A stretch of DNA of 64,000 bases from Glycomyces xiaoerkulensis (GTDB lineage Bacteria; Actinomycetota; Actinomycetes; Mycobacteriales; Micromonosporaceae), in contig NZ_PGGV01000037.1 in the NCBI RefSeq assembly GCF_002798405.1, positions 124,001 through 188,000 on the forward strand. Direction: 5' to 3'. The position numbers were made by a program, and so were the translations under genes. This document shows, piece by piece, positions 23,839 to 52,293 of this stretch. Positions within the stretch are counted from its first letter, which is position 1; each line of letters opens with the position of its first letter. The notes below the pieces were generated by a model. It was not told where the DNA came from and ran no database searches. It saw only the letters and a program-made list of their open reading frames with translations.

Positions 23839-24528
23839 TCAGGCGAGGAACGGCAATCGGCGCAGGGACCCGCGGTGCGGTTCCTCCGACCACCCGCCCG
23901 GTGCCGGATTCGGACGCACCCAGCGGGTTCGCAGCCGGGAACGGAGCTCCCGCTCGCTCAGCCCTTCGGCGCTCACACTGATCCGGAAATCCATCTCGTC
24001 GCAGGAGAGGGTGAGCAGATCCGGTGCCGCGAGCGTGTCGACGGCCTGCAGCGGGGTCGACAGGCCCCGGCCGGTGCGTTTCACGAGGGCCTCCTTCCGC
24101 GTCCACAGCGAACTGAGGTCGTCGGCCCTCAGGAGCCGGTCCCTCACGCGTTCCTCGCCCGGGGCGGCGATGCACTCGAAGAGGCCCCCATCGAACGGCA
24201 CGCGCGACTGGAGGTCGATGCCGATCGGCACGGAGGCGAAGGCGCACACGCAGACCGAGGCATCGTGCGACCAGTTGAAATGCGCTTCGGGAAGCCCCCG
24301 GAACCGGGGCTTCCCGAACTCCCCGCTGACGACCTCGGGCATCGGGTCGGCCGACCGCTCCCGCCAGAGGTACTGCAGCAGCGCGAACGAGACCACGCGG
24401 GCGTACCGGTCCTGCCGCCGGTGGTAGCGGTCGGTCTTACGCCGCCGCTCGGCCGGCACCTCCGCGCGGAGCCGCTGGAACGTCGCCTCGTCCAGCGGGT
24501 CGGAGCGGGCGATGGCGACGTCGATCAT
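23839..24528 (-). CDS. Sfp-type 4'-phosphopantetheinyl transferase
   Basis: A 229-residue enzyme that attaches the phosphopantetheine arm of CoA to carrier-protein serines, needed for every T/ACP domain of this cluster. FNWSHDA (His88), PIGIDLQSR (Asp105) and WTRKEALVKRTGRG (Glu146) are the Sfp motifs. The second Mg-site acid, normally Glu in GxDxE, is Gln107 here. The ATG overlaps the stop of the FabF-like gene (ATGA, 24525-24528). It is the last gene of the operon. Confidence 0.88.
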   Translation of the reverse strand: MIDVAIARSDPLDEATFQRLRAEVPAERRRKTDRYHRRQDRYARVVSFALLQYLWRERSADPMPEVVSGEFGKPRFRGLPEAHFNWSHDASVCVCAFASVPIGIDLQSRVPFDGGLFECIAAPGEERVRDRLLRADDLSSLWTRKEALVKRTGRGLSTPLQAVDTLAAPDLLTLSCDEMDFRISVSAEGLSERELRSRLRTRWVRPNPAPGGWSEEPHRGSLRRLPFLA

Positions 24529-25748: not shown

Positions 25749-25893
25749 GCTTCTCCATCGGGTTGCGACTGGGGGGTTTGCGGTGGACCGCCACTGGTAC
25801 CGCCCGGAGGCGACGGCGGCGCCACGGCCGGTGCCGTCCGGGCGCCGGCCGTGGCCCGTCGCCGCCGGTCACGCCGATCGGCGCCGGAGGCGG
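25749..25893. other. Spacer inside the biosynthetic operon
   Basis: This 145-bp gap between the second ACP and the FabF-like gene is the longest inside the operon. It contains inverted GC-rich stretches (GGCGCCGGAGG, and CACGGCCGG with CCGGCCGTG near 25835-25856) that could form a hairpin and tune downstream expression. No gene is seen. Confidence 0.4.
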
Positions 25894-26130
25894 TCAGGCG
25901 TGCTGCCGTTCGGCGGCCTCCTGCACGCGGTCGTAGAGGTCCTGGACGCTGACGAGGGAGTCGGTGACCTCCACGCCCTGCTTGCCGACTGTGTCCTCGA
26001 TCTTCATCATGAACTCGAAGACCCCGATCGAATCCACGCCGATCTCCTCCAGGTCGTCGGTCATCGCCAGCTCGCCGGCGGTCTTGGTGGTGAACTCCGC
26101 CAGCGCGTTCTTGAACTCTGATTCGGTCAT
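25894..26130 (-). CDS. Acyl carrier protein (second of the cluster)
   Basis: A 78-residue acidic carrier protein. The phosphopantetheine serine is Ser34 in EIGVDSIGVFEFM. The sequence is of the free-standing fatty-acid/type II kind. It lies between the ABC ATPase (18 bp upstream) and the FabF-like synthase, its likely partner. Confidence 0.88.
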   Translation of the reverse strand: MTESEFKNALAEFTTKTAGELAMTDDLEEIGVDSIGVFEFMMKIEDTVGKQGVEVTDSLVSVQDLYDRVQEAAERQHA

Positions 26131-26148
26131 GATCCGTTTCGATCCCTT

Positions 26149-26919
26149 CTAGAAACCCTTTTTCCTCAGCCACGCGAACAGGTCGTCCTCGCGTCGGCCC
26201 GCCTCGTCCTCGCTCCACGTCCCCAGCTCGCGGGTATCGACCAGCAGGCCGTCGCGGAGGTAGATCACCCGGTCGCCGCGGGCGGCGCACGCCGGGTCGT
26301 GGGTCACCATGACCACCGTGGTCCCCGCCCGGTGCACGTCCGTGAGCGCGTCCATCACCTCGGCCGACATGCTGCTGTTCAGCGCGCCGGTGGGTTCGTC
26401 GGCGAACAGGACGGACGGTTCGCAGGCCAGGGCCCGGCAGATCGAGGCCCGCTGCAACTGGCCGCCGGAGACCTGGGTGATGCCGTGCTGCTTGACGTGC
26501 GCGATGCCGAACCGCTCCAGGAGCGCGTCGACGCGGGCGATTGCGGCGTCCTTCTCCTTCGGGGCCGCCTTGAGGGCGGGCAGGAGGATGTTGTCCCGGA
26601 TGTTCAGGTTGTTCAGGAAGAACGCCTGCTGGAAGACGAAGCCCATCGTCGTCAGCCGGACGCGGCTCGCCTCCTTGTCGCTCAGGGAGGTCAGGTCCCG
26701 TCCTTCCAGGAGCACGCTCCCGCCGGTCGGGCGGTCCATGCCGCTGACGCTGTAGAGCAGCGTCGACTTCCCGGATCCGGACGCTCCCATCACGACCAGG
26801 AACTCGCCCTCCCTGACCGACAGGTCGATTCCGTTGAGGACCTGGGTCGGAGGGTCGGTGGAGTAGTACGTTTTGGTCAGGTCCCGGGATTCCAGGGTGA
26901 CGTGGTCTGCTTGTGTCAT
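26149..26919 (-). CDS. ABC transporter ATP-binding protein (MacB/LolD type)
   Basis: A 256-residue ATPase. Walker A is GASGSGKST at residues 45-53, the signature is VSGGQLQRAS, Walker B is VLFADEPTGALNS, and the switch His is in VMVTHDP. The FADEPTGAL form and the adjacent FtsX-type permease mark the MacB/LolCDE class, which moves substrates by a mechanical cycle. It starts 11 bp after the permease gene. It probably exports or protects against the cluster's product. Confidence 0.92.
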   Translation of the reverse strand: MTQADHVTLESRDLTKTYYSTDPPTQVLNGIDLSVREGEFLVVMGASGSGKSTLLYSVSGMDRPTGGSVLLEGRDLTSLSDKEASRVRLTTMGFVFQQAFFLNNLNIRDNILLPALKAAPKEKDAAIARVDALLERFGIAHVKQHGITQVSGGQLQRASICRALACEPSVLFADEPTGALNSSMSAEVMDALTDVHRAGTTVVMVTHDPACAARGDRVIYLRDGLLVDTRELGTWSEDEAGRREDDLFAWLRKKGF

Positions 26920-26930
26920 GAGTGCTCCAA

Positions 26931-29333
26931 TCAACCTCTGAGCCACGAGCTCTTGTCGGCGCCGCGAAGACCCGCGGTGAGGGTGACCGCGCCGAGGTAT
27001 CCGGCCGCGATCAGGATCAGCGGGTAGGCCGCATAGACGAGCAGCGGGTTCGGGATGAACGAGAGGTCCGCGATGCCGAGTCCCGCCAGTGAGATGAAGG
27101 CTCCGACCAGGGATTCTCCGGCCGTCGCCGCGAACACGACGCCGGCCAGCGTCCCGACGGCCACCGCGACGAGGGTCTTGAGCCTCACCTGGGTGATGAT
27201 CTCGCCGGTCGAGAAGCCGATGGCCGACATCGTGCCCATCTTCCTCCGTTCGCTCGTCAGGCGCAGTTTGAGGAACAGGCTGGTGATGAGCACCGCGACG
27301 CCGATTCCGAAGATGAGGGACAGGACGGCGGCGCTGAGGAAGGCGCCGGTCACGTAGGACAGTGTCTGCTGGACGTACTCCCGCATGGGGATCACGGCGG
27401 CGGCCGGGAAGCGCTCGCCGTAGTCGTCGGCGACGGCGGCGGCGTCGGTGCCGTCGACGGTGTCGGCGTAGATCACGTAGCCGGCCGCGTCGGTCGCCAC
27501 CTCCCCTTGCATCTTGGCGGTGTGCCCGCCGCTGGTCACGTCCTGGTAGACGCCGCTGACCACCACCGGGGTCGCCTCGCCCCCGAGACTGACGGTGATC
27601 TCCTCGCCGGTCGAGACCCCGTACTTGTCGGCGTTCAGGACCGACAGGGCGATCTGCCCGGATTCGGGCGGCTCGCCCCGCAGGTACTCGACCGTGTCGC
27701 CGGAGTAGTCGCCGACCTCGACGCGCAGGGTCTCCAGCCCTTCCTCCCCTTCGATCTCGTAGAGCAGGTTGGAGAAGGCCCGCACGTCGGTCAGGCGGTC
27801 GTCTTCCCGCATGTCCGAGAGCACTTCGGTGCGGAGCCGGTCGACGTGCTCCGAGAACTGCAGGTCGGCGCGGATGTCGCTCTCGGGTGCGCCCATGTAG
27901 GTGACGAACCGGGGGCTCTCGAAGGTGCTGAGCAGGTTCATCGGGAGGGTGATGAGGACGGCCACGAGGAAGAAGACGACGGGGATCAGGATCCACTGCC
28001 TGGCGTCGGCCCTGATGTCCAGCAGCGCCAGGCGGCCGTTGACGCTGCGGCCGCGGAACGAGGCGAGGCCGGAGCGCCGGACGCGCCGGGCCTGCCGCTT
28101 GGCGCGGCGCGCGGTCTGCCGGTCGCTGAGGGTGCTGCCGTGGACCATGGCGTTGACGACCTGGATCTTCCTGACCCGGCCGAGGACGCGGCGGCAGATG
28201 GCGATGACGAACAGGTAGACCAGCGCCAGCCCGATCACGGGCACCAGGACGGTCGCGGCGCCCACCGGCGCCTCGGCGTAGTTCACCTGGACGCCGCGGG
28301 TCAGCAGGTTCGTCGCCACCACGGCGAGGAGCCCGCCGACGATGCAGGCCAGGAGGGTCATCACGCTGTACTTCGCCAGGTACAGGCGGGCGATCGACTT
28401 GTCGGGAAGGCCGATGGCCTTCATGGCGCCGATCTCGCGGACCTCGTCCTCGAGCTTCCCGCGGATCACGAAGCGCGCGTTGAGCAGGGCGATGGCGATC
28501 AGGAGGAGGCTCAGGAACACCAGGGCCACCGCCACCAGGCCGTCGCTGAAGGCGTTGATGATGCGGATCATCTGGTAGGTGACCGCCTGGCCGTTCTTCG
28601 GCAGCGACTCGTCGGACTCGTACGCCCGCTGGAAGTCGGGTATCAGGGCCGCGTCGGTCAGCAGGTACTCGACGATGATCTCGGGGGCGCCGCCTCCGGA
28701 CCGCTCCAGTTCCTCGAAGTCGTCCTCGGAGATCAGGAACCGCGTGGCCGACGACAGCGACGAGGCCATCTGCGAGTCGCGCACGAACCCTTCGACGCGC
28801 AGGTCGAGGGTCCCCGAGTCGGTCTTGACCTGGAGTTCGTCGCCGGCCCGCAACTCGAACTGCTGCTTGTAGGCGACCGGGACGTAGACCTCCCCCCGGG
28901 AGGGTTCGGGGATCGCCCCGGACTCGTCGATCAGGAAGTCGAACTCCCGGTTCTGCGTGACGAACAGGTTGTCGATCAGGCTGTCGGCCAGATCGCCCGA
29001 CTCGTCGGTCTCCGGACGGTCCCAGGCGATGGCGGCACCGTCGAAGCCGAGCATCTCCTCGACCAGCCATGCGTCGATCTCCGGGTGCTCGGCGGCGAAC
29101 CGCTCCAGCGCGTCCGGGTCGTAGTCGCCCTTGTGCATCTGGAGGAAGTGCGGCGGCTGGGCCTCGTCGAAGAGCTGGTCGACCGATCCGATCAGGCGCT
29201 CCATCACCATGGCCCCGGTGGCCATCAGGAAGGCGCTGAGGACCAGGATCACGATGAGCGCGGTGTTGACGCCCTTGTTCTTGATCAGATCGTTGGAGGC
29301 GTATCGGAGATACAGGGACTCCCTCTTGTTCAC
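26931..29333 (-). CDS. FtsX/MacB-type ABC permease, duplicated
   Basis: An 800-residue permease. An N-terminal helix near residues 20-42 (TALIVILVLSAFLMATGAMV) precedes a large extracytoplasmic domain to about 245, then three helices to about 370. After a basic linker the pattern repeats: one helix near 455-475, an external domain to about 650, then three helices. This is two FtsX units in one chain. The GTG overlaps the previous stop (GTGA, 29330-29333) and has GGAG upstream. It pairs with the ATPase just downstream. The substrate is likely the cluster product, an inference from position. Confidence 0.88.
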   Translation of the reverse strand: MNKRESLYLRYASNDLIKNKGVNTALIVILVLSAFLMATGAMVMERLIGSVDQLFDEAQPPHFLQMHKGDYDPDALERFAAEHPEIDAWLVEEMLGFDGAAIAWDRPETDESGDLADSLIDNLFVTQNREFDFLIDESGAIPEPSRGEVYVPVAYKQQFELRAGDELQVKTDSGTLDLRVEGFVRDSQMASSLSSATRFLISEDDFEELERSGGGAPEIIVEYLLTDAALIPDFQRAYESDESLPKNGQAVTYQMIRIINAFSDGLVAVALVFLSLLLIAIALLNARFVIRGKLEDEVREIGAMKAIGLPDKSIARLYLAKYSVMTLLACIVGGLLAVVATNLLTRGVQVNYAEAPVGAATVLVPVIGLALVYLFVIAICRRVLGRVRKIQVVNAMVHGSTLSDRQTARRAKRQARRVRRSGLASFRGRSVNGRLALLDIRADARQWILIPVVFFLVAVLITLPMNLLSTFESPRFVTYMGAPESDIRADLQFSEHVDRLRTEVLSDMREDDRLTDVRAFSNLLYEIEGEEGLETLRVEVGDYSGDTVEYLRGEPPESGQIALSVLNADKYGVSTGEEITVSLGGEATPVVVSGVYQDVTSGGHTAKMQGEVATDAAGYVIYADTVDGTDAAAVADDYGERFPAAAVIPMREYVQQTLSYVTGAFLSAAVLSLIFGIGVAVLITSLFLKLRLTSERRKMGTMSAIGFSTGEIITQVRLKTLVAVAVGTLAGVVFAATAGESLVGAFISLAGLGIADLSFIPNPLLVYAAYPLILIAAGYLGAVTLTAGLRGADKSSWLRG

Positions 29334-29818
29334 TCGAAGCTCCAAACTCCCGGTATCTGCGTGGACATCCACGTCAGGACGACGTGGTAGACCACGTCGA
29401 GAACGATGTTGCCGACCTCGACCCAGTCGGTCTTACCGCCGGCCCTCCGCTTCCGCAGCACCTCCTGGGTGTGGGTCCACAGTCCGCTGATGCCGTAGAT
29501 GTACAGCGTCACCAGCACCCCGACCCAGAAGTTGCCCTGGAACCAGATCGCCAGGACGCCCATCACGCCCAGGCCCAGTTGGGAGAACCCGTACTTGACC
29601 TGGAAGGGTCCGCTCGGCCAGCCCAGTTTCTCGGCGGTCTTCTCCGGTTGGAGGACGTTGATGATGAACCCGCCGACCGCGATGATCCCGTGGCTCACCG
29701 CGAACTGGTGCAGCAGGAAGGTCTTCATCACCTGCGCGTAATCGGCCGAGAATCCTTGCACGGCGAGCTGCACGACCGCGGTCAGCAGCCCTATGCCGAT
29801 GATTACGACAATCCACAT
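29330..29818 (-). CDS. Small multi-span membrane protein of the biosynthetic operon
   Basis: A 162-residue membrane protein with four to five hydrophobic segments (IVVIIGIGLLTAVVQLAV first, then near 40-60, 78-98, 100-118 and 135-150). It resembles DUF6790-type proteins, an assignment I hold loosely. The ATG lies 5 bp after the MFS stop, with its ribosome-binding site in the MFS codons. The stop overlaps the permease start. Coupling to both transporters suggests an export or immunity role. Confidence 0.7.
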   Translation of the reverse strand: MWIVVIIGIGLLTAVVQLAVQGFSADYAQVMKTFLLHQFAVSHGIIAVGGFIINVLQPEKTAEKLGWPSGPFQVKYGFSQLGLGVMGVLAIWFQGNFWVGVLVTLYIYGISGLWTHTQEVLRKRRAGGKTDWVEVGNIVLDVVYHVVLTWMSTQIPGVWSFE

Positions 29819-29823
29819 CGTAT

Positions 29824-31194
29824 TTACCTCTTTGTTTCCACGGTTTGCTGTAGCAAGTTGTCCCCAATGCGTTTGACGCTCTTGACCCGCGGTATCGCCA
29901 CGGCGGTTCCGATGAGCATCACGCCGACGATCATCAGCATCAGCCCGATCCCGCGCGAGGGGCCGACGTCGATCAGCAGCCCGAGGCTCCCGGCCAGCGC
30001 ACCGTCCGGTGTGAGCAGCGGGTTGAAGACGGCGTCGGCCAGGACGCCGGAGACGGCGTAGGCGATGATGTAGCCCAATTGCGAGATCAGCCCCATCAGG
30101 CCCCAGACCTTGCCCTGGGTCTCATTGGGAATCGAATGCCGGGCCAGCACCTCGACGCTCGTGTTCAGCGGCGGAAGCGTCATGAAGAAGACGAAGGCGA
30201 GCACCCCGATGACCAGCACGTTCACCGTGGCGCCCATCAGGAGCACCACGACGCCGCCGACGGTCAGGCCGGCCGCGATGTAGGTGAGATGCCGATTGCC
30301 CATGTTGAATATGCCGATGGCCAGGCTCGACACGACCATGCCGACCGCCGCGACCGAGCGGACCACCCCCGAGACCGCCTCGTTCGACAGGTCGAGCAGC
30401 AAGGGGGTCAGGAGCGTCTGGAGGAACCCCATGCAGAAGGTCACGAGGGTCACCAGCAGCATCAGCATGGTGATGCCCCGGTTCCGCCGCAGGAACGCCA
30501 CGCCGAAGCGGAAGTCGGCCCAGAATCCGCGTTCGGAGGCCGTCTTCTCGGTGTTGAGCGTGCGCCACACCATCGCCATGCACAGCGTGGTCACCGCCAG
30601 CGTGCCGATGTCGATCGCCAGGATGAGCGCGATCCCCGACCAGGCCATGAGTACGCCCGCGATGGCGGGCGACACCAGGTACTGGGAGGCGGTGGCGAAC
30701 TGCACCAGTCCGCCGGCCCGCGCGTACTGCTCGGGCGTGAGGAGGTCGGTGACGGTGGCCCGGTAGGCGGGGTCCATGACGGAGGTGAACACCGAACTGA
30801 CCGCGACGCACCCGTAGACGACGAACACGCCTCCGAAGCCGCTGTGGATCGCCAGCAGCAGCGCCACGAGGCCGACCGCCGAGAACGCGTCGCCCAGGAT
30901 CATCAGCAGCCGGCGGTCGAACCGGTCGGCCAGGACCCCTCCCAGCGGTGCCAGCAGCACCGCCGGCAGGAACGCGGCCATGGTGACCATCGCGACCGCG
31001 GTGCTGCGCCCGGTCAACTGGTAGACGTGCACGGCCAGGCCGAACGCGGTCAGCCCGTTGCCGAGGCGCGCGACCAGTTGCGCCGCCCAGATGACCATGA
31101 AGCCCCGGAAGTTGCGCGCCACCTCCGCCTCGGTCCGCGCCCCTTCCGGGGGACGCTCCGACGAGATCACCTGGCTCATCCGGCGGCCCGCCAC
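29824..31194 (-). CDS. MFS exporter
   Basis: A 456-residue major facilitator of the EntS-like group often found in peptide and siderophore clusters. It has twelve hydrophobic segments, with the loop 2-3 motif GGVLADRFDRRLL. A polar 25-residue N-terminus precedes FMVIWAAQLVARLGNGL. The GTG at 31194 has GAGGA upstream. It lies 10 bp after the thioesterase. It probably pumps out the product in addition to the ABC system. Confidence 0.9.
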   Translation of the reverse strand: MAGRRMSQVISSERPPEGARTEAEVARNFRGFMVIWAAQLVARLGNGLTAFGLAVHVYQLTGRSTAVAMVTMAAFLPAVLLAPLGGVLADRFDRRLLMILGDAFSAVGLVALLLAIHSGFGGVFVVYGCVAVSSVFTSVMDPAYRATVTDLLTPEQYARAGGLVQFATASQYLVSPAIAGVLMAWSGIALILAIDIGTLAVTTLCMAMVWRTLNTEKTASERGFWADFRFGVAFLRRNRGITMLMLLVTLVTFCMGFLQTLLTPLLLDLSNEAVSGVVRSVAAVGMVVSSLAIGIFNMGNRHLTYIAAGLTVGGVVVLLMGATVNVLVIGVLAFVFFMTLPPLNTSVEVLARHSIPNETQGKVWGLMGLISQLGYIIAYAVSGVLADAVFNPLLTPDGALAGSLGLLIDVGPSRGIGLMLMIVGVMLIGTAVAIPRVKSVKRIGDNLLQQTVETKR

Positions 31195-31204
31195 ATGCTC
31201 GTCC

Positions 31205-34355: not shown

Positions 34356-34595
34356 TCATTCGTGCTCCTCGGCGAGGTAGGTGCTGATGTCGTCGACGGT
34401 CTTGAATTCGAAGAGCGCGACCGGGTTGATGTCGATGTCGAGCTCCTTGCGCAGGCGGTTGATGATCTTCAGCGCCTGGACCGAGGACACCCCGAGCCGC
34501 ATGAAGCTGGCCCGGTCGTCGATCTCCCCCGGGGCGATCGAGAGCTCCTCGGCGATCTCCTTGGTGAGCACGGCGGTGATGTGGTCCTTGTCCAC
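34356..34595 (-). CDS. Acyl carrier protein (first of the cluster)
   Basis: A 79-residue carrier protein with the attachment motif LGVSSVQALKI (Ser38, with Ser in place of the usual preceding Asp). The GTG start has AAAGGAG upstream. It lies 11 bp after the stand-alone KS and before the aminotransferase, so it likely carries the chain on which both act. Confidence 0.88.
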   Translation of the reverse strand: MDKDHITAVLTKEIAEELSIAPGEIDDRASFMRLGVSSVQALKIINRLRKELDIDINPVALFEFKTVDDISTYLAEEHE

Positions 34596-43600: not shown

Positions 43601-46600
43601 ACGAGGTCGTCGTCCTCGGCGGCGGCTACCGCGTAGGACACGCCGTCGGCGCGCATCGCGGTCTTCTCGATCTCGCCGAGTTCGATGCGGTTGCCGTTGA
43701 GCTTCACCTGGTGGTCCAGGCGGCCCTTGAGGGCGATCTCCCGGTTCGGGAGGCGGACGCCGACGTCGCCGGTCCGGTAGACGGGCACGTCCGGCAGTTC
43801 CCGGAGGGCGGTGAAGGCCCGCCGGGTCTCCTCCGGATTGTTCACATAGCCGGCGGCCAGGCCCTCCCCGGCGATGCAGAGCTCGCCGGGCACGCCGTCG
43901 GGCCGGATCATCCCGTCGTCGCCGACCACCAGCACCTCGGCGCCGGAGATCGCGCTGCCGATGGTGACCTCGTCGCCCGGTGCGAACTCCTTGACGGTGG
44001 CGGTCACCGTCGTCTCGGTGGGCCCGTACATGTTGAAGATGCGGGCACCGGTCTCCTCCTGCAGGTGCGTCAGCAGGTTCTCCGAGAAGTGCTCGCCGCC
44101 GCAGACGACGACCCGCAGCTTGTGGAGTTGGGCGCCGAAGCGGCGGTTGCCGCACATCGCGGTCATCTTCGACACCGGTACCTGGATGTGGGTCACGTCG
44201 TGGGCGGCGATGCGGTCGGCGATCGCCGCCGCGTCCTTGTGGTCGCCGGCGGGGCACATGTGCACCGCCGCGCCCGAGGCCAGCGGGATGAGGCTCTCGA
44301 AGGCGAAGATGTCGAAGGTGGGGTCGGCCAGGCTGATGATGACGTCCCCGGGTCCGAACAGGTCGCGCTCCCGGTGGTCGGCGAAGAGGTTGCACACGCC
44401 GCGGTGCCTGACCGCGATGCCTTTCGGGTTTCCGGTCGTCCCCGACGTGTGGATGGTGTAGATCGGATCGTCCGGCCCGGTCGGGGGAGCCTCGAACTCC
44501 GGCAGGGCCTGGTCGGTGCAGGTGCCGATGTCGAAGACCGTGTCGATGCGGGAGGTCGCGGCCAGGCCCGCCGGCGCGAAGGCGAACCTGGGCCTCATGT
44601 CGGCGATGATGCGTTCGTGTCGCGCCTCGGGCTGGGAGGGGTCGAAGGGCGCGTAGGCGCCGCCGGCCTTGAGGATCGCGAGCTGCGCGATCAGGAGGTT
44701 GACGTCGCGGACGGTGAACAGCGCGACGGTTTCGCCGGTCTCCAGCCCGGCCGCGCGGAGGCGGGCGGCCTGGGCGTTCGCCAGGGCGTCGAGCCGGGCG
44801 TAGCCGTACCGTTCGCCGTCCGCGTCGATGACGGCGGTCGCGTCCGGGGTCTGTGCCGCGTTCCGGGCGATGAGCTCGTGGATCGGTGTGAACGGCGCGG
44901 CGGTCAGGCGGGCGCGGACGGCCTCGTGCTCGGCGTCGGCGTGCAGCGGGATCCGGCCGATCGGCCGGGAGTCGTCGGCGCAGGCGCGGTCCAGCAGCGT
45001 ATCGAAGTGGGCGGCGAGCTTCTCGATGGTCGGCCGTTCGAACAGGTCGGCCGCGTAGTCGATGTCGACCGTCAGCCCGTCCTCGGCCTCGGTGCAGGTG
45101 ATGACGAGGTCCATGCCGACCGCGGGCGGCATCACCTCGAGCGGCCGCGCTCCGATCCCGTCGATCCGCAGGTCATGGTGGTCCATGTTGTGGTAGTCGA
45201 AGGAGACGTCGAACAGGGGGTGGCGGCCGGGGACCCGGCGCAGTTCGAGCTTTTCGACCAGTCGGTCGAAGGGCACGTCCTGATGGGTCAGGGCGTCGAG
45301 CACCGCCTCGCGTCCGGCGTCCAGGTATTCGCCGAAGGCGGTCCGGGCGTCCGGCCGGAGCCGGATCGGCATCATGTTGACGAACATGCCGATCATCTCC
45401 TGCGTCTCGGCCATGGTCCGGCCGGTGACCGGTACGCCGATTACCAGGTCCTCGGTTTCGGCGTAGCGGGAGAACACCGCGCCCCACGCCGACAGCATCG
45501 CCATGAACGGCGTCGCGTTGTGGGCCTCCGCGAGGGCCTTCACCGCGTCCACGCGGTCCGGGCCCAGGCGCAGGGTCACCCGGCCGGCCTCGGCGTCCCG
45601 GCGCCCGCGCGGGTGGTCGGTGGGGAGGAGATCGCGCACCGGCGCGTCGGCGAGCGCGGCCGCGAGATGGTCCTCGGATTCCGATCGGGCGTCCCGGCGC
45701 TCGGGGTCCCCCTCGTGCATGACGAAGTCCTTGTACTGCAGGGGGAGCGGATCGAGCTCCCCGGCGTACAGCCGGCTGAAGTCGCGGGTGAGGACCTCGG
45801 CCGACACCGCGTCGGCGACGATGTGGTGGATGTCGAACAGCAGCAGGCTGCCGTCGGGCCCGCCGTCGACGATCTCCATGCGGAACAGGGGGCCGCGCTC
45901 GAGGTCGAAGGGCCGGACGAATTCGGCCATCAGATCGTCGACGGCGTCGTCCTCGGGGAGGTCGCCCCGGGTGAACCGGAGCGGCGGCTCCGGGTGTGAC
46001 CCGGTGTCGGCCACCCGCTGCCGGACCTCGCCGCCGCGCATGGCGAAGGTGGTGCGGAGCGGTTCGTGCCGTTCGATCAGCCGCCGGAGTGCGGTCCGCA
46101 CCCGCTCGGGGTCGAGCGAGCCGTCCAGCCGTGTCGCGGACGGCATGTTGTAGATGAGCCGGCCGGGGTCCATCTGCGCGGCGATGTACATGCGGGTCTG
46201 GGCCGGGCTCAGCGGGTAGTCGTCGGCTGCGGGGGCCGGGCGGAGGCGTTCGGCGGTGCCGGTCCCGTCGAAACGTTCGGCCAGCGCCGCGGGAGTCGGG
46301 GCGGTGAAGATGTCGGCGACGGCGACGTCGAAGCCGAGGCGGCTCCGCAGGTGCGTGGCCAGTCCCGTGGCCTTCAGCGAGTCGCCGCCCAGGGCGAAGA
46401 AGTCGTCGTCGGGGGTGATGTCCCGGTACCCGAGCACCTGCCGGAAGGCGTCGAGGACGCCCTCCGGGGCGTCGGCCGCGGAGGCGGACGGTGTCTCCTC
46501 CGGAGTGGACGGTTCGGTGGCGACGCCGGTGTCCTGCGGGTGGGCGACCGGGTCGAAGGCGTACCCGGGCAGGGAGATCCTGCGGCCGGTGTCGTGGCGG

Positions 46601-49600
46601 CTCCAGTCGATCGGCAGCCCGGCGGCCCAGAGCCTGCCGAGCGAGTTCAGCAGGTAGGCGTCGTCGGGCGTCGGCTCGGCGGCGTGGCGCAGCAGGTTCT
46701 GGAAGCTCTGGTCCGGGCGGCGCTGCGGATCGTGCGCGGCGAAGGTGGACAGGGTGCGACCGGGGCCCAGCTCGATCCCGTAGAGCGGTCCCTCCGACAG
46801 CAGGGTCCGGACGCTCTCGGCGAAGTGGACCTCGTCGGTGATGTGGTCGCTCCAGTAGGCGGGGGCGGTCATCTCCCCCGGCCGCGCGATGCGGCCGGAC
46901 CGGTTCGAGATGATGGGGACGGACGGGTCCCGGGACTCGACGCCCGACACGACCGCCTCGAAGGCCTTTGCGGCGTCGGCCATCATCGGGGTGTGGAAGG
47001 CGTGCGAGGTGTGCAGCCTGCTGCCTTGGACGCCGTGGTCCTCGAGCCGCCCCACCACGTCGCCGAACGCCTCCCGGGTCATGCCGAGGACGGAGCGCTC
47101 GGCCGAGTTGTCCAGCGCGACCCAGACGCCGGGCATGCCGTCGACGATGGATCGGACGCGTTCGGCGGGCGAGGTCACGGCGACCATCACGCCCGGTTCC
47201 TGGCGCTGCATGAGGGTGCCGCGTTCGCGGACGAGCCGGGCCGCGTCCTCGAGGCGCCACACTCCCGCGAGGGCGGCGGCCGTCAGCTCGCCGATGCTGT
47301 GCCCCACCAGGACTTCCGGCTCGATACCGAGGGACTCCAGGACCTTGGCCATGGCGAACTGGGTACTGAACAGGGCGTACTGCGACCATTCGGTGCGGTC
47401 GACGCGACCGTCGTCGTCATCGCCGTACAGCAGGTCCCGGAACTCGGCCGCCTCGGCGCCGGGCAGCAGGCCAGTCAGTTCGTCCATCCAGTGCCGGAAC
47501 ACCGCGCCCGCGGGGCTCGGGCTCCGGTAGAGGCCGAGGCCCATCGCGCGGTACTGGTTGCCTTGGCCGGAGAACAGCAGGGCGGTCTTACCGCCGTCGG
47601 CGGCCTTCGCCGCGCCGGCGGCGGCGATCCGCTCGCTCCAGGCCTCGGCGTCCCGGTCCTCGTCGGCGGCCACGACGATCGACTTCCGGTAGGGCAGTTC
47701 GGCGCGCCCGCGGCGCAGGGTGACCGCCGCGTCGCTCAGCGATACGTCGTCGTGGTCGGCGACGTGGCGGACGACGCGTTCGGCGGTGCGGTCCAGCGCT
47801 TCCCGGCTCGCCGCGGAGAACTGCAGCAGCTCGTAGGGGTTGTCGTCCGTCGGCCGGGTCTCCGGCGCCTCTTCGAGGATCATGTGCACGTTGGTGCCTC
47901 CGACACCGAAGGAGTTGATGCCCGCCCGCAGCCGCCGTCCGCGCCAGGCCCGGCCTTCGCCGGTGACCTCGAAGGGGGTGGCGTCGAAATCGATGTTGGG
48001 GTTGGGCTTGTCGTAGTTGCGGGTGCCGGGCACGTAGCGGTGCTTCAGGCTGAGCGCCACCTTGCTCAGTCCCACCGCACCGGCGGCGGTGTCGGTGTGG
48101 CCCACGTTGCCCTTCACCGATCCGAGCAGGCACCCGCCTTCCGGGCCGCCGTCGAAGGCGCGGGTCAGCGACGCGACCTCGATCGGGTCGCCAAGGAGCG
48201 TGCCGGTGCCGTGCGCCTCCACGTACGTCACGCTCGAGGGGTCGATGCCGGACGTTTCGTAGGCCGCGCGGATGGTCTCGTACTGGCCGTCCTCGCTGGG
48301 GGCGGTGTAGGAGGCTTTGCGCTTGCCGTCGTTGCCGACCGCCGACCCCTTGATGACGGCGTAGACCGGGTCGCCGTCCCGGAGCGCCGCGTCGACCGGC
48401 TTGAGCATCAGGAGCGCCGCGCCGTTGGAGAAGACGGTGCCGTCGGCGGCGGCATCGAACGGGCGGCAGTGCCCGTCGGCGGACAGCATCATGCCGTCGA
48501 CGTAGCGGTATCCGCCCTCGTTGGGCAGTTCGATGGTGACGCCTCCGGCCACGGCCGTGTCGCATTCGCCGGCGCGCAGCGACTGGGCGGCCTGGTGGAC
48601 GGTGAGGAGCGAGGTCGAGCAGCCGGTCAGGGTGGAGATGGACGGCCCGGTCAGGTCGAAGTGGTAGGACAGGCGCGTGCTCAGGAAGTGGTTGGTGGCC
48701 AGCGTGAAGTTCTGGTAGAGGTCGCCGAACGCCGAGGGGCCGAGCAGCGCTCTCCGGTACCAGGCGAAGTCGTCGCTCCCGCCGGCGAACACCCCGGTCC
48801 GGCCCGGGATCGACCTGGGGTCGTATCCGGCGTCCTCGCAGGCCTGCCAGAAGCATTTGTACAGCAGCCGGAGCTGCGGGGAGGTCGCCTCCACTTCGGC
48901 CGGCGGAATGCCGTAGAGGTTGTCGTCGAAGACGTCGACGTCCGCGATCCGGCCCTTGGCCTTCACGTAGTCCGGGTCGCGGAGGTCGCTCTCGGGGACG
49001 CCCAGGGCGCGCAGTTCGTCGTCGTCGTAGAAGGTGATGCCCTCCGATCCGGCCCGGAGGTCGGCCCAGAACCGGTGGACGTCGGCCGCGCCCGGCACCT
49101 GGATGCCGATGCCGATGATGGCGATGTCGTCGCCGCGCCGCGCCCGCGGGCGTGAGACCGGCTCGGGCCGCGCGGAGTCGCCGAGCAGCCGGGTCTGCGC
49201 CGCGACGGTGTGGTGCTTGAGCAGGTCGGTGATGGGGATCTCGCGCCCGAACTCCTCCTTGATCTCCAGTTGCAGGCTCATGAGGTTGAGCGAGTTGCCG
49301 CCCTGCTCGAAGTAGGAGCCGTCGACGTCGATCTCGTCGTTGCCCAGCACACGCCGCCACAGTCCGGCGATCCGCTCCTGCGCGGGCGACCCGGCCGGCG
49401 CGGCGGCGCCCGCTTCGCGCGCGCTCGGCAGCCGCCGCTTGAGGGCCCGGCGGTCGAGTTTGCCCGCAGCCGACGTCGGCAGCGCCTCCACCCGCATCAG
49501 CACCGACGGGATCATCTGCGGCATGAGGTTCCGCGCCAGCGCGGCGCGGACCCGTTCGGCGGGGACGTCCTCGCCGGCGGTGAAGAATCCGGCCAGGCGC

Positions 49601-52293
49601 GCGGGGACGGCCTCGTCGTCCACGACCGCCGCGGCCTCCACCACGCCGTCGGCGTCCAGGAGGGCCCGCTCGACCTCGCCGAGCTCCATGCGGACGCCCC
49701 CGACCTTCACCTGGTCGTCGATGCGCCGGATGAACGCGAAGCGGCCGTCCGAACGCAGGTACCCGAGATCGCCGGTGCGGTACATGCGCCGCATGTGCGC
49801 CGGATCCTCCTCCGGGTCGAAGAACGGGTTCTCGACGAAACGGGTGGCGTTCAGCTCGTCGCGGTTGAGGTAGCCGGCGGCCACCCCGGCGCCGGCGATG
49901 CACACTTCGCCGGGCACGTCCACGCCGCAGAGGCCGTCGTCCCGGTCGAGGACGTAGACGCGGTAGTCGTTCAGGGGCGTCCCGATCGGCGCGATGGGAT
50001 CGGTGTCGTCGGCGGTGACGGTGCTGTGCGTGGCCCACATCGTCGCTTCGGTCGGGCCGTACACGTTCTCCAGGGAGCACTGCAGCGGCAGCTCGAAGAA
50101 CCGTTCGGTGATGTCCGAGGTCAGGGCCTCGCCGCCGCTGAACACGTACCGCAGCGAGGCGAGGTCGGCGGCGCGGCCGCTCGAGGCGGCGGCGTCCAGG
50201 AGCACGCGGAGCATGGTGGGAGAGAAGTTCACGTGCGTGATGCGCCGCTCCCGGATCGCGCCGATCAGGGCGGGCGCGTCGCCCTCTCGCCCGGCCGGGA
50301 GGATCGCGAGCCGACCCGCTCCGAACAGCCATCCGTAGACCTCGGTGCCGAAGATGTCGAACGTGAAGGCCGTCTTCAGCAGATAGACGTCGTCAGCGGC
50401 CAGCGGGAAGCGGCGTTCCAGGTCCAGGGCGGTGTTCTGGATGTTCGCGTGGCGGACCACGACGCCCTTGGGCTGTCCGGTCGACCCGGAGGTGTACTCG
50501 ATGTAGAGGGTGTCCTCCGGGTGGCGTTCGACGCGGGCCGGCCGCTCGCCGATCCGCACGCGCTCGTCCGCGGCGAGGGCCTCCAGGTCGTCCCAGTGGT
50601 CGATGTCGAGTCGGGTCACGCCTTCGGGCAGCTCGAGTTCGGCGGCGGAGGTGGTCAGGACCACCGAGATCCCCGCGTCGTCGAAGATCTGGGCCAGCCG
50701 CCGGGCGGGCATGCCCTCGGACAGCGGCACATACGAGCATCCGGCGAGCACCGTCCCGAAGACCCCCGCCAGCAGTCGGGCGCTTCGGGGCAGCAGCACC
50801 CCGACCGGCCGCTTCTCGTGGCCGACCGCCTCCAGGAGGCGGCGTTGCACCAGGACCGCCGCGTCATGGGCCCAGGCGTTGGAGTAGTCGCGGGTTTCGT
50901 CGGACCAGGCGAGGCGCGCGGGATCGGAGGTGGTCTTGTCCAGGAAGACCGAGCCCAGGTCGGTCGGCTCCCAGTCGAAGCGGTGGGTCCGGGAGAGGTC
51001 CGCCAGCAGGTCCGCCGTCTCCGAATCGGGGGCCGACCGGATCGCCCCGACCGGGGCGTCCAGCGCGTCCGGGATCCGGGTGAGCATCGCCAGGTATCGC
51101 CGGGCGAAGCGTGAGACCCGGTCCTCCGACAGCGCCGGCTCCTTGTACTGGAACACCAGCTCGGAGGTGTCCCCGATCTGCTCCACCAGAACGGAGAGCT
51201 TGCCGGGGAAGTCGACCCGGTCGTGCCGCACCGTCCCCAGCACTCCCTCGGGGTACCGGGGGTAGCTGTCGTGGATGAAGGTCACGTCGGTCGCGCGGCT
51301 CAGCGCCGGACGGTCGGTCAGCAGCTTCGTGACCGGATACCCGAGGTGCTTCCAGGTTCCGATGACCTCTGCGCCGACCCGCTCGAGCATCGCTCGAAGA
51401 GTCCGGCGCGGGTCCGCATCGATGTGCACCGGGAGCGTCTTGATGAAGCAGCCGATGCTCTGCTCCATCTCCAGCGCGGGCCGGTCGGCGAAGGGCGTCG
51501 CCACCGACACCTGGTCGGCGTGTGCGTATCGAGCCAGCAGCAGCCCGAACGCCCCGAGGTACAGAGTGTACTCGGAGACTTCCGCTTCCTGCGCGCAGGA
51601 GCGCAGCGCATCGCGCAAGGACGGATCCACGGGAAGGCGGATTTCCCGTCCCACGGATTCGCCTGTATCAGATCGCATCCAATGGGACAGATCCGGGGCT
51701 TCCTGCCTGTCGAGGTTCTCCTCCCAGAATTTTCGGCGCCTGCTCTCCTTAGACTCGGGGAGCGATTCGGATTGCTTCTTCTGGTAGGAGTGAAACCCGG
51801 CGTCTTCCTCGATCGGAGTCCCCGGATCGGTACCGCCGCGGCGCGCGAGGAACATGACCCGCTCGGCCAGGAGGCTCACCGACTGTCCGTCGGCGATCAA
51901 GTGATGGCAAACGACGAGCAAATGATCTTCCTCGCCGAACCTGCATTGAGCGATTCGGAAGAGTGGTGCCTCATCAAGCTGGAACGGTGTCTTCGCCACC
52001 TCTTCCAAGATCAACTCGAGCGCCTGCCCGCTGTATTCAATATCATACACAGTAGTGGGTGGATCGACGGACTCGGCGACGACGTACGAGACGCCGTCCC
52101 TGCCGTTCCGCGCAGCGCTTCGCAGCGCCGGCTGTTCTGACATCACTTGGCGCACAGCATGTTCGAGCCGTCCTGGGTCGACCGGCTCCATCCTCAAGTG
52201 AAGTACCACATGGTAGTCGGACGCGTCCCGCAGTTGGCAGTCGAAATACATGCCTTGCTGGGACAGCGACATCGGCACAGCCGATTCTGTCAT
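36436..52293 (-). CDS. Hybrid NRPS-PKS megasynthase, 5285 residues
   Basis: A giant cytosolic assembly-line enzyme. Domain order with key residues: C1 (HHLIADG 130), A1, T1 (Ser1001), KS1 (Cys1225), AT1 (Ser1666), ACP (Ser1972), C2 (HHIVADA 2156), A2, T (Ser3002), KS2 (Cys3243), AT remnant (3512-3757), ACP (Ser3801), C3 (HHIIGDQ 3984), A3, T (Ser4829), C4 (HHGVFDG 5037). It should join three amino acids with two malonate-derived units. No KR, DH, ER, E, MT, R or TE domain is visible. The ATG at 52293 is preferred over a GTG at 52317, since C domains start within a few residues of VPMSLSQQGMYF. It is the first gene of a 13-gene operon. Each module is listed separately. Confidence 0.95.
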   Translation of the reverse strand: MTESAVPMSLSQQGMYFDCQLRDASDYHVVLHLRMEPVDPGRLEHAVRQVMSEQPALRSAARNGRDGVSYVVAESVDPPTTVYDIEYSGQALELILEEVAKTPFQLDEAPLFRIAQCRFGEEDHLLVVCHHLIADGQSVSLLAERVMFLARRGGTDPGTPIEEDAGFHSYQKKQSESLPESKESRRRKFWEENLDRQEAPDLSHWMRSDTGESVGREIRLPVDPSLRDALRSCAQEAEVSEYTLYLGAFGLLLARYAHADQVSVATPFADRPALEMEQSIGCFIKTLPVHIDADPRRTLRAMLERVGAEVIGTWKHLGYPVTKLLTDRPALSRATDVTFIHDSYPRYPEGVLGTVRHDRVDFPGKLSVLVEQIGDTSELVFQYKEPALSEDRVSRFARRYLAMLTRIPDALDAPVGAIRSAPDSETADLLADLSRTHRFDWEPTDLGSVFLDKTTSDPARLAWSDETRDYSNAWAHDAAVLVQRRLLEAVGHEKRPVGVLLPRSARLLAGVFGTVLAGCSYVPLSEGMPARRLAQIFDDAGISVVLTTSAAELELPEGVTRLDIDHWDDLEALAADERVRIGERPARVERHPEDTLYIEYTSGSTGQPKGVVVRHANIQNTALDLERRFPLAADDVYLLKTAFTFDIFGTEVYGWLFGAGRLAILPAGREGDAPALIGAIRERRITHVNFSPTMLRVLLDAAASSGRAADLASLRYVFSGGEALTSDITERFFELPLQCSLENVYGPTEATMWATHSTVTADDTDPIAPIGTPLNDYRVYVLDRDDGLCGVDVPGEVCIAGAGVAAGYLNRDELNATRFVENPFFDPEEDPAHMRRMYRTGDLGYLRSDGRFAFIRRIDDQVKVGGVRMELGEVERALLDADGVVEAAAVVDDEAVPARLAGFFTAGEDVPAERVRAALARNLMPQMIPSVLMRVEALPTSAAGKLDRRALKRRLPSAREAGAAAPAGSPAQERIAGLWRRVLGNDEIDVDGSYFEQGGNSLNLMSLQLEIKEEFGREIPITDLLKHHTVAAQTRLLGDSARPEPVSRPRARRGDDIAIIGIGIQVPGAADVHRFWADLRAGSEGITFYDDDELRALGVPESDLRDPDYVKAKGRIADVDVFDDNLYGIPPAEVEATSPQLRLLYKCFWQACEDAGYDPRSIPGRTGVFAGGSDDFAWYRRALLGPSAFGDLYQNFTLATNHFLSTRLSYHFDLTGPSISTLTGCSTSLLTVHQAAQSLRAGECDTAVAGGVTIELPNEGGYRYVDGMMLSADGHCRPFDAAADGTVFSNGAALLMLKPVDAALRDGDPVYAVIKGSAVGNDGKRKASYTAPSEDGQYETIRAAYETSGIDPSSVTYVEAHGTGTLLGDPIEVASLTRAFDGGPEGGCLLGSVKGNVGHTDTAAGAVGLSKVALSLKHRYVPGTRNYDKPNPNIDFDATPFEVTGEGRAWRGRRLRAGINSFGVGGTNVHMILEEAPETRPTDDNPYELLQFSAASREALDRTAERVVRHVADHDDVSLSDAAVTLRRGRAELPYRKSIVVAADEDRDAEAWSERIAAAGAAKAADGGKTALLFSGQGNQYRAMGLGLYRSPSPAGAVFRHWMDELTGLLPGAEAAEFRDLLYGDDDDGRVDRTEWSQYALFSTQFAMAKVLESLGIEPEVLVGHSIGELTAAALAGVWRLEDAARLVRERGTLMQRQEPGVMVAVTSPAERVRSIVDGMPGVWVALDNSAERSVLGMTREAFGDVVGRLEDHGVQGSRLHTSHAFHTPMMADAAKAFEAVVSGVESRDPSVPIISNRSGRIARPGEMTAPAYWSDHITDEVHFAESVRTLLSEGPLYGIELGPGRTLSTFAAHDPQRRPDQSFQNLLRHAAEPTPDDAYLLNSLGRLWAAGLPIDWSRHDTGRRISLPGYAFDPVAHPQDTGVATEPSTPEETPSASAADAPEGVLDAFRQVLGYRDITPDDDFFALGGDSLKATGLATHLRSRLGFDVAVADIFTAPTPAALAERFDGTGTAERLRPAPAADDYPLSPAQTRMYIAAQMDPGRLIYNMPSATRLDGSLDPERVRTALRRLIERHEPLRTTFAMRGGEVRQRVADTGSHPEPPLRFTRGDLPEDDAVDDLMAEFVRPFDLERGPLFRMEIVDGGPDGSLLLFDIHHIVADAVSAEVLTRDFSRLYAGELDPLPLQYKDFVMHEGDPERRDARSESEDHLAAALADAPVRDLLPTDHPRGRRDAEAGRVTLRLGPDRVDAVKALAEAHNATPFMAMLSAWGAVFSRYAETEDLVIGVPVTGRTMAETQEMIGMFVNMMPIRLRPDARTAFGEYLDAGREAVLDALTHQDVPFDRLVEKLELRRVPGRHPLFDVSFDYHNMDHHDLRIDGIGARPLEVMPPAVGMDLVITCTEAEDGLTVDIDYAADLFERPTIEKLAAHFDTLLDRACADDSRPIGRIPLHADAEHEAVRARLTAAPFTPIHELIARNAAQTPDATAVIDADGERYGYARLDALANAQAARLRAAGLETGETVALFTVRDVNLLIAQLAILKAGGAYAPFDPSQPEARHERIIADMRPRFAFAPAGLAATSRIDTVFDIGTCTDQALPEFEAPPTGPDDPIYTIHTSGTTGNPKGIAVRHRGVCNLFADHRERDLFGPGDVIISLADPTFDIFAFESLIPLASGAAVHMCPAGDHKDAAAIADRIAAHDVTHIQVPVSKMTAMCGNRRFGAQLHKLRVVVCGGEHFSENLLTHLQEETGARIFNMYGPTETTVTATVKEFAPGDEVTIGSAISGAEVLVVGDDGMIRPDGVPGELCIAGEGLAAGYVNNPEETRRAFTALRELPDVPVYRTGDVGVRLPNREIALKGRLDHQVKLNGNRIELGEIEKTAMRADGVSYAVAAAEDDDLVLYYTSTGARDLSAPIEAEIGRALPAYMKPTRLQRVDRMPQLPNHKIDRRALRNAARAQDAPEPDRAPAAPAPADVLETILAAWEAVLDRPAAPSDNFFDIGGNSYKLMLVNNRLGESLGTDVPLVKLFENPTPQSLSEALGTPAAPEPRDAPDAITLGDLTGFDDWADDDRPADGREIAVIGVSGVLPGAANIAEHWADRSAGRVGISRFTREEMLEAGLDEAAIDDPRYVNARGFVDASTFDADFFGYSAKEAETMDPQMRLLHETAWHALEDAGYVPGEHPGDIGLFAGSGTNFAWMAGFLNRRDDPLGAFEAMTMNEKDFLATKIAYKLDLTGPAVTVQSACSTSLVAIHEAVQCLRQGEAAMALAGGVALNFPRKEGYASHEGMIFSPDGVCRPFSRDADGTVPGQGAGMVLLKLLDRAVADGDHIYAVIAGSATNNDGNGKVGYTAPSARGQEQVIRAALADAGADADEVGYVETHGTGTELGDPIEYEALSAVYGKRRPCALGAVKGNIGHLDAAAGVAGFLGAVGVLHRGAIPPMPNFLDMNERIDPSGSLYVPTGETVPEPGVRTAAVSSFGIGGTNAHLVLKSAPPRPDEPDEDGEYLYPVSAGTEQSRRRMQETLEDFCREARSARDVSHTLARGRAELESRAVAIAEPGRPLAWIEPSDPPLAVDASDGARLSVPGEPAADRSLAGADFREAVERELRVFDDGLRSALRRGVFEEPSSDRAIDRLSQFVIRAALIRVAGPGSLHAPAGADRLLRIAHASAVGEIGPAEAVQCLKSGTVPAGAPPRPDRSPELVADPLDPARLRRILASQWVHGGQVDRSRFCAIGKRIPMPGYAFAERRFTSDIRLDELGGDAGRPAPPAAAAAEVLREAWTEVLGTEPSDDDDLLRSGGDSLTAVRLCALIEDRTGLSLTAGEVFADPRYAAIRERLAKQGDPAPTERPEPAAAPPPSTAPASPAQKRMYAVCAMQNDTTAYNLATAYEITGPLDVERLRTAFGHLVERHDQLRTSFHLDGGALMQRVHADVPDVVSVTELTAEAADARLAAEPRPFDLAAAPLMRVEVLSVDGAPRYLLIDMHHIIGDQRSLAILVDDIADALGGKALPAAPMRYAEYVEALEKLEADGKFDRDVEFFTEMLGGEIPKLELPADKTPPEPATFDGARHGFVSEAGRRAVADLARDCGATPYMVFLTALTRLLGLYSGQREFVLGTAVSGRTVPGTDRTVGMFVNTLPLRVTDDSRRTVREAVTASRDDALAVLGHQDAPFEAVLSELGLQPGGDAHPLFDVLFNYVNTGTEELELDGVRLEPLPPGRIKSRYALSVSVAEREDDFSVDIEYRTELFDGATIARMGRQLDRLLVEMARDADRPVSRLRPETPAEHGRRRAALTAAGPVIDESLLDRVRASFAHHADRPAFRWERREWSYAEVDRLTDAVAGGLQAAGVGPGDFVACHLDRGPWQVFTRVALMKCGAVEIPLDPKAPAERVAHALEDSGAAVALCSDPRAHPWPEDVAVHQPERLSGTYEAPDGITAASPLIMIYTSGTTGQPKGTLVTHGGVLSTCADNGYMDYRPGERILHLTANTFDPSLLDVYSAFLSGATLVMGGHALNMDMRLLADFLRRERIDKGILITAVFHLLMAEDPAAIDGMSGLYVGGEAMQPWAAKRAFEVLGPGGLYNLYGPTEASVCTTYFRVDESPDFDRMPIGVPARNRELYITHPDGTDVPRGVPGELRIAGPSVAIGYHRRPELTAEKFTDAPGGTTGRLYRTGDRVVLDESDRIVYIDRVDRQIKHAGYRIELSEIELALQRCTGVTEAVVIHTNERDDSRLTAFYTGEAAPAEAELRQALQAKLPQYMVPQRAFWKRALPLTPHGKADRKRLAAEIERAEAPPAPSPGADPAVLDAFREALGAPDLQATDDFFYAGAQSLQAIAAVRRLRESGMDLQVSDVYRNPTAAGLSSVLQSAPDPEPEPPQRKRRDLPAEQVRRMVDWAAEDGRRVAAAFAAEEPEYRFDIGAVARLHRSSGAETGGCMQTVTGLDAADLREAIAALAGRHEVLRARLAGDEFEILPPEAVGSLPELVAVQDLRRLDPGRIRDFTDALAHALQAEPFDEGLLWRCVIVRESDRTLRLVWAFHHGVFDGFSAGILSDELPRLARGEALPDAQRYSRFLTALEPDRDWRSELDSFDYAGWTDSNRAVIEALASRSDAVPAGRASVPLGGEHPLEAALRQVHGRLSELTGEKRIAAGLVNDCRRWKGHDYAHCMGEFLDVVPVLLQGDGDQPAVAERLARAQEQGIHYLHSLSEAGRDGLPEELAAAYRNREGRLGLALVNFQGHIAPADVPDGPTGGPALAPAHVNVWHDDEFLHLEWITDDATQDTTGDRQ
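37654..40743 (-). other. Megasynthase module 5: C3-A3-T
   Basis: Residues 3851-4880. C3 has MHHIIGDQRS. A3 has YTSGTTGQPKG at 4444, an unusual A4 segment NTFDPSLLDVYS, and NLYGPTEAS at 4581. Hand-read pocket residues D-P-L-L-L-V-L-V-C-K are hydrophobic and unassigned. The T domain has YAGAQSL, with Ala-Gln in place of the usual Gly-Gly/Asp/Asn but the serine kept. Confidence 0.85.
40744..43113 (-). other. Megasynthase module 4: KS2-(AT remnant)-ACP
   Basis: Residues 3061-3850. KS2 is complete (SACSTSL with Cys3243, THGTGT, NIGHLDAA). The next 245 residues (41023-41760) keep the flanks of an AT (a KS-AT linker, and a post-AT GKRIPMPGYAFAERRF) but are about half the normal length and lack GQG, GHSxG and HAFH. 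The ACP has LLRSGGDSL. Malonyl must come from AT1 or an outside AT. Confidence 0.85.
43114..46233 (-). other. Megasynthase module 3: C2-A2-T
   Basis: Residues 2021-3060. C2 has HHIVADA, with Ala for the usual Gly after the Asp. A2 has HTSGTTGNPKG at 2615, NMYGPTETT at 2754, and A10 reads PNHKIDR. Pocket residues read by hand are D-I-F-Q-V-C-M-V-T-K, which match no common code I know. The T domain has FDIGGNSYKL. C2 must accept a beta-ketoacyl donor from module 2. Confidence 0.85.
46234..49158 (-). other. Megasynthase module 2: KS1-AT1-ACP
   Basis: Residues 1046-2020. KS1 has its Cys in TGCSTSL (the usual TAC is TGC) and both histidines (HGTGT 1361, NVGH 1399). AT1 has FSGQGNQ, GHSIGE and HAFH at 1764; HAFH indicates malonyl-CoA. 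It is the only intact AT in the cluster. The carrier site is ALGGDSL. No reductive domain is present, so the extension leaves a beta-ketone. Confidence 0.88.
49159..52293 (-). other. Megasynthase module 1: C1-A1-T1
   Basis: Residues 1-1045. C1 is a complete condensation domain at the very N-terminus, so it should accept an acyl or peptidyl starter from another carrier protein, as starter-C domains of lipopeptide synthases do. A1 has YTSGSTGQPKG at 600 and NVYGPTEAT at 743. The substrate-pocket residues read by hand are D-I-T-N-V-S-V-M-W-K, loosely like cysteine-type codes. T1 has FEQGGNSL. Confidence 0.85.

Follow-up and report, generated by a model that had tools for sequence, protein, structure and literature searches.

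What does a bacterial operon make when it combines a hybrid NRPS-PKS synthase with free-standing ketosynthases (KS), carrier proteins and an aminotransferase, and is its layout as unfamiliar as it first appears? The question is raised by 13 genes (g1 to g13, numbered in the direction of reading) of Glycomyces xiaoerkulensis, found in a stretch of 64,000 nucleotides that we analyzed as a whole and refer to as the window; the host genome comprises 4.37 Mb in 40 contigs. With modest confidence, we lean towards the view that they form a complete operon for a small beta-aminoacyl lipopeptide-polyketide.

A conserved and intact operon

All 13 genes lie on the reverse strand, as the first-pass annotation of this DNA had described, running from position 52293 down to 23839, and every frame is open. 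The g1/g2, g5/g6, g8/g9 and g12/g13 junctions are 4-bp overlaps. The largest intergenic gap was correctly given as 145 bp (g11-g12), while the picture of genes otherwise joined by overlaps or gaps under 20 bp has to be amended for g3-g4 (61 bp) and g6-g7 (25 bp), both measured from the chosen starts. Pfam and NCBIfam searches bear out the proposed parts list, namely the hybrid synthase, two discrete KSs, two discrete ACPs, a GSA-type aminotransferase, a TEII, an MFS exporter (g7, 29824..31179), an FtsX-type ABC permease (g9, 26931..29333) with an ABC ATPase (g10, 26149..26919), a DUF6790 protein and a PPTase (g13, 23839..24528). Likewise in agreement with the annotation, the Pfam and NCBIfam listings of the 13 proteins contain no regulator, oxidase, methyltransferase or glycosyltransferase family; they also contain no KR, DH or ER.

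The search for this gene order in other actinobacterial genomes, which had been proposed as a check, was run and returned the same order in nine of nine other complete clusters. Since, in addition, the dN/dS values of all 13 genes fall between 0.17 and 0.48 (two pairwise comparisons), a chance assembly of genes is excluded, and the 13-gene operon is real and intact. Recent decay of the cluster was considered and is ruled out, since the frames are open, selection is purifying and the catalytic residues are intact. A degenerate acyltransferase (AT) within the synthase and the lack of a regulator in the operon could nevertheless be taken as signs of a decayed or silent cluster; yet all 13 frames are open at the dN/dS values given above, the catalytic residues are kept in 12 of 12 synthase copies, and the dead AT is common to 13 copies from two phyla, which makes it an old feature rather than a recent loss. 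Hence, we regard a decayed or silent cluster as very improbable. A 3190-aa open frame on the forward strand (window 36427-45999), antisense to the synthase, is most likely a shadow of the GC-rich codons of the synthase.

Distribution and genomic site

Altogether, 14 clusters were counted: 10 complete and one partial from Actinobacteria, and three from Clostridia. The complete actinobacterial clusters are those of the window, G017, G003, G025, G033, a Stackebrandtia MAG, Antribacter, Pseudopropionibacterium, a Propionibacteriaceae MAG and Brachybacterium; the 13 parts occur in unchanged order in all 10, the KS and ACP of the Propionibacteriaceae MAG being a single ORF. The partial cluster (L028) is located on a short contig, and the other 12 clusters outside the window carry the synthase. 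The clostridial clusters belong to an Oscillospiraceae MAG (goat omasum), a Ruminococcus MAG and Acetivibrio straminisolvens. The occurrence of the same gene set in distant actinobacteria and in clostridia indicates a natural-product family that has recurred and not a single isolated case.

The g2 protein found strong matches in five of 101 relatives, including its own genome. At the level of the order, the g5 profile matched five of 397 genomes (one weakly, 5e-10), and at the level of the phylum it matched four of 396 (three weakly, with E-values from 4e-7 to 7e-6). A scan with the g4 alignment, covering one genome per species, yielded 78 loci, 11 of which (L022-L032, with G017 and G003 recurring among them) carry the g2-g3-g4 group together with other cluster genes; these counts are minima, since the pattern step of the scan needs exact short peptides. 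In Bacillota, the cluster is rare: one of 398 genomes has it, and that one is the query genome itself. Plasmid searches returned nothing close, with a single match to g8 at 28% and two to g4 at 36-40%.

In the tree of g1, the Antribacter sequence is sister to that of the window (support 0.998) and is nested within Glycomycetaceae, which suggests transfer. In two related genomes without the operon, the flanks (nhaA and a hydrolase gene on one side, tRNA-Lys and yaaA on the other) are separated by 7-11 kb occupied by unrelated genes, and the DNA similarity of the window to its relatives ends near 22.9 kb (22939) and returns at 52975-53005. This comparison places the operon in a variable site beside tRNA-Lys. 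Elsewhere in the window, a CofH/MqnC-type radical SAM gene and a VitK2_biosynth gene (8747-11688) probably belong to futalosine menaquinone synthesis.

The synthase and its decayed acyltransferase

The synthase g1 (36436..52293; 5285 aa) is read by Pfam as C-A-T, KS-AT-T, C-A-T, KS-T, C-A-T, C; with the decayed AT included, the architecture C-A-T-KS-AT-T-C-A-T-KS-(decayed AT)-T-C-A-T-C is the same in all 12 full-length copies. These copies also keep the second His of the four condensation domains, the Ser of the five T domains, the Cys of both KSs and the Ser of the AT. The first condensation domain, C1 (50989..52293; HHxxxDG residues in 12/12), is not preceded by a carrier domain, and its donor should therefore be taken from another protein. 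Downstream of the adenylation domain A1 (49414..50961), KS1 and AT1 (46714..49134) follow, with GHSxGE and AFH motifs in a domain and motif search; we assume that HAFH in AT1 suggests malonyl specificity. T2 and C2 (44944..46461) and A2 (43444..44901) lead to KS2 (41809..43080). In the KS tree, KS1 and KS2 are sister clades (support 0.997), as would be expected of a duplicated module.

The adenylation pockets, located by anchoring on motifs and numbered after GrsA, are conserved in A1 (D-I-T-N...M-W, 12/12) and in A2 (D-I-(F)-Q..M-V-T, kept in both phyla) and vary among clusters in A3 (within T4-C3-A3-T5, 37699..40986). They match no code assignable with confidence, hence no amino acids are predicted; the nearest solved A domains gave no trustworthy substrate hint either. 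The conserved A1 and A2 pockets along with a variable A3 pocket predict that the products share a scaffold and differ in the last residue.

Between KS2 and T4 lies X2 (40999..41808), a truncated and catalytically dead AT remnant. In a search of 21 sequences, the AT profile recognizes X2 in all 12 copies (E-values of 0.002 or better), whereas GHSxG is present in none of the 12 copies of X2 and in all 12 of AT1. The strongest match in that set (3.7e-39, with a profile that includes linkers) is the Acetivibrio piece, in which the first half of the AT is left, GHSxGE is altered and the second half is missing. Shared by 13 copies from two phyla, the decay is old, and these sequences indicate that one AT had decayed before the clostridial and actinobacterial forms split. 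The decay is thus caught at several stages, partly preserved in Acetivibrio and more eroded in Actinobacteria.

With X2 dead and g2 devoid of an AT, both KS2 and g2 have to rely on an AT acting in trans. The operon itself has no discrete AT gene, and a FabD-like gene of the host is located on another contig. The AT-less state characteristic of trans-AT PKSs is found in g2 and in the KS2 module, while AT1 beside KS1 is intact, so that the assembly line is a mixed one; in a profile search, g2 matches several trans-AT/AT-less KS entries well.

The synthase ends in C4 (36484..37596), a divergent condensation domain with an intact HHxxxDG motif, and carries no TE. In its fold, its active histidine and its place as the last domain, C4 agrees with a macrocyclizing terminal C domain, and terminal releasing or cyclizing C domains (fungal CT domains, e.g., TqaA) provide a known counterpart; we propose that C4 is the release domain. 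Fungal CT domains are among the matches of C4, not at their top, and in the C-domain tree C4 shares a long branch with two domains, of which one is a fragment.

The proposed starter genes

Next to the synthase lie three genes that would build its starter. g2 (34607..36439) is a discrete KS without an acyltransferase, in which Cys-His-His is intact and the post-KS region ends in a post-AT-like linker; g3 (34356..34595) is a discrete ACP, the proposed carrier of the beta-ketoacyl and beta-aminoacyl starter; and g4 (32966..34294) is a class III (GSA-type) aminotransferase that keeps its PLP lysine, K274. The KS, ACP and class III aminotransferase expected by gene content in a beta-amino lipopeptide pathway are therefore present with intact residues, and g2-g4 would feed the NRPS. 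The operon also encodes a second discrete ACP (g11, 25894..26130) and a FabF-type KS (g12, 24525..25748), the latter distinct from the FabF on contig 34.

Phylogenetic analyses set these proteins apart from the fused starter enzymes of mycosubtilin type. g4 forms a separate clade next to free-standing enzymes (0.987 for 13 core members, one of them a second copy of the window's own sequence), with a Massilia enzyme as sister, and the fused mycosubtilin-type aminotransferases fall elsewhere; g4 scores 3.5e-67 against GSA aminomutases versus 6.1e-38 against the MycA domain. The g2 KS does not group in the KS tree with KS domains upstream of fused aminotransferases. A C-domain tree, meant to place C1 among acceptors of beta-aminoacyl donors, left it apart from the eight C domains located after fused aminotransferases (support 0.52). 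The trees rule out that g4 and g2 descend directly from the aminotransferase and KS of mycosubtilin, so the likeness is one of arrangement and not of the ancestry of each part. A second GSA-type aminotransferase gene, probably hemL, is found on contig 31 (118887-119978), about 5 kb left of the window start.

Clostridial relatives

In all three clostridial clusters, a fatty acyl-AMP ligase domain (an NCBIfam call that lies below the curated cut-offs) and a carrier domain are fused in front of the g2 homologue, and homologues of g3, g4, g5, g6, g8, g9 and g10 are present. The 13 genes of the operon include no fatty acyl ligase, and the ligase query found no match outside g1 in the fetched regions of the nine other actinobacterial clusters (9/9); FabF and ACP are present in all nine of these relatives. 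Conversely, no g11 or g12 match occurs in the fetched stretches of the three clostridial clusters; for Ruminococcus this proves little, since about 1.3 kb of contig is left beyond g10. g11 is not recognizably related to the clostridial starter ACP, being no closer to it than to the carriers of g1. With the clostridial KS fused to ligase and ACP, the free KS, ACP and aminotransferase of the window look like a known beta-aminoacyl starter that has been split. The layout, which the first-pass annotation had considered unfamiliar, is therefore not unique, given 13 other clusters, and its free-standing parts are largely explained by fused relatives; what stands of that claim is that no described pathway of this layout was found in open-access papers, which do not cover MIBiG.

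The Acetivibrio straminisolvens cluster shows several peculiarities. At L116 2750-8132, genes for FkbH (over the cut-off), an acyl-CoA dehydrogenase, a discrete FabD-like AT, the aminotransferase and a hydroxybutyryl-CoA dehydrogenase stand in a row. A set of FkbH, AT and dehydrogenase makes an alpha-hydroxylated extender; by analogy, the starter of the Acetivibrio product may be a 3-amino-2-hydroxy unit, and extender genes around the aminotransferase are as expected if it acts on that extension. The synthase and the g5 and g8 homologues of this strain (L115-L117) are each split over several frames. In the Oscillospiraceae MAG (L111 18788-19678), a helix-turn-helix regulator gene lies between the ABC ATPase and the PPTase, and an ORF resembling it is found after the Ruminococcus cluster; no such gene occurs in the actinobacterial operon.

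Comparison with known systems

A ligase and a PKS with an aminotransferase have been proposed as typical of beta-amino lipopeptide synthetases (PMC4219810). MycA, ItuA and FenF are described as a ligase-ACP-KS-ACP-aminotransferase arrangement with a trans acyltransferase (PMC3039948). As in the mycosubtilin, iturin and bacillomycin systems so described (MycA, ItuA, BamA with FenF/ItuD), an AT-less KS, an ACP and a class III aminotransferase act ahead of NRPS modules in our proposal, and the clostridial relatives go further in this likeness with their ligase-ACP and, in Acetivibrio, a discrete AT (PMC3039948). Unlike the iturin family, however, the operon keeps these parts in separate genes, with an aminotransferase and KS of other lineages, and the Actinobacteria have FabF and ACP instead of a ligase. 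Moreover, the iturin family has seven amino-acid modules and a terminal TE, whereas g1 has three A domains with two malonyl units between and a terminal C domain; a discrete malonyl transacylase gene, present in Acetivibrio, is absent from the window operon. The operon most likely works like the iturin family, of which it is not a member.

In puwainaphycin biosynthesis (puw, Cylindrospermum), a PKS and an aminotransferase similarly make a beta-amino fatty acid, and ligase and ACP are separate genes; puw also has a reducing PKS module, a monooxygenase and a terminal TE, none of which is found in the window operon (PMC4219810 for puw). Set beside puwainaphycin, the Acetivibrio variant may add an alpha-hydroxyl, to judge from its FkbH. 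For lipid supply, the calcium-dependent antibiotic (CDA) offers a precedent, with a dedicated FabF-type KS and ACP beside the NRPS, as with g11/g12 here. To our knowledge, CDA has no aminotransferase-made beta-amine, unlike the product proposed here.

The proposed pathway

We infer the order of use, chemistry, release and product from the observed genes, domains, conserved residues, decayed AT and conservation. In the pathway that we favor, FabF (g12) and ACP (g11) would supply or extend an acyl chain, in place of the ligase in Actinobacteria. The AT-less KS g2 would add a malonyl unit on g3, loaded in trans by AT1 of g1 or by the host FabD, and g4 would convert the beta-keto group to a beta-amine. 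C1, in view of the missing carrier before it, is expected to accept the starter of g2-g4 and would join it to the first amino acid. One malonyl unit each would come from KS1-AT1 and from KS2, in alternation with amino acids 2 and 3, and these units should stay unreduced because nothing in the operon reduces them. C4 would then release the chain, perhaps by ring closure onto the beta-amine of the starter, while the TEII would edit, export would fall to the MFS and ABC systems, the PPTase would prime the carriers and g5 may shield the host.

The same parts could be used in another order, with the beta-aminoacyl-ACP g3 as last acceptor: C4 would join the chain to its beta-amine, the TEII or another hydrolase would free the product, and C1 would take a plain fatty acyl group from g11. 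Such an order would suit the position of g2-g3-g4 after g1 in the operon, the need of C4 for an acceptor, the capacity of g11/g12 to feed C1, and the separation of C1 from C domains that follow fused aminotransferases. It would, however, leave C1 donorless in the Oscillospiraceae MAG and in Acetivibrio, given the lack of g11/g12 matches in their fetched stretches, and the FAAL-ACP-KS of both is a typical starter arrangement; we consider it unlikely. Still less probable is that g4 also aminates the beta-keto thioesters bound to T2 and T4, so that internal beta,gamma-diamino acids would arise. A separate aminotransferase and internal PKS modules that both lack reductive domains would permit this, but g4 adjoins g2-g3 in 13 of 13 clusters where the region is visible, Acetivibrio aside, where AT and dehydrogenase genes lie between.

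Returning to the beta-aminoacyl starter pathway, we found no product or pathway matching the operon layout in open-access papers (MIBiG being outside this search), and no matching paper for the producing genera. The pathway might already be described under a name that appears only in MIBiG or in subscription papers; in view of the open-access result we think this improbable, and the product and pathway are probably undescribed. If our reading is right, the operon stands for a biosynthetic family with at least 14 representatives in two phyla and an apparently undescribed product, several of them in named strains and so probably culturable, and assembly-line evolution can be followed in it as in a natural experiment (a starter fused or split, supply by a ligase or by FabF-ACP, an AT at several stages of decay). 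As a doubtful extension, we speculate that an old family moved between Actinobacteria and Clostridia, that FabF-ACP replaced the ligase, that one cis-AT serves three KSs since its sister AT decayed in place, and that C4 closes a small macrolactam from the beta-amine of the starter to the last amino acid, whose ring would contain two 1,3-dicarbonyl units, unreduced or aminated.

Accessory genes and upstream repeats

The discrete thioesterase g6 (31205..31954) is of TEII type. Two small membrane proteins had been annotated; g8 (29330..29818) is indeed small and carries DUF6790, whereas g5 (31951..32952), with 333 aa and about 10 helices, is not small. g5 has no Pfam match and adopts a CPBP/CAAX-protease fold. 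The CPBP/CAAX proteases have motifs with conserved catalytic Glu and His residues; g5 shares the fold of this family (Rce1, SpdC) but not the catalytic residues, as E149 is invariant and no histidine is invariant among 11 homologues. A role in self-protection or as a scaffold is possible.

The 145-bp gap between g11 and g12 (25749..25893) folds into a strong GC hairpin, as does this gap in each of five Glycomycetaceae clusters (z from -2.2 to -5.1, with most rather than all of the gap folded in two of the five); the hairpins of the window and its four relatives are unrelated in sequence. The hairpin is a possible terminator or attenuator, and FabF and the PPTase may be expressed apart from the rest of the operon. 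Upstream of g1 lie three 40-nt direct repeats (52551-52590, 52630-52669 and 52708-52747; spacing 79 and 78 bp). The repeat is absent from the 1-kb upstream stretches of 11 relatives and is therefore not part of the shared system; in the window, it possibly forms a binding array.
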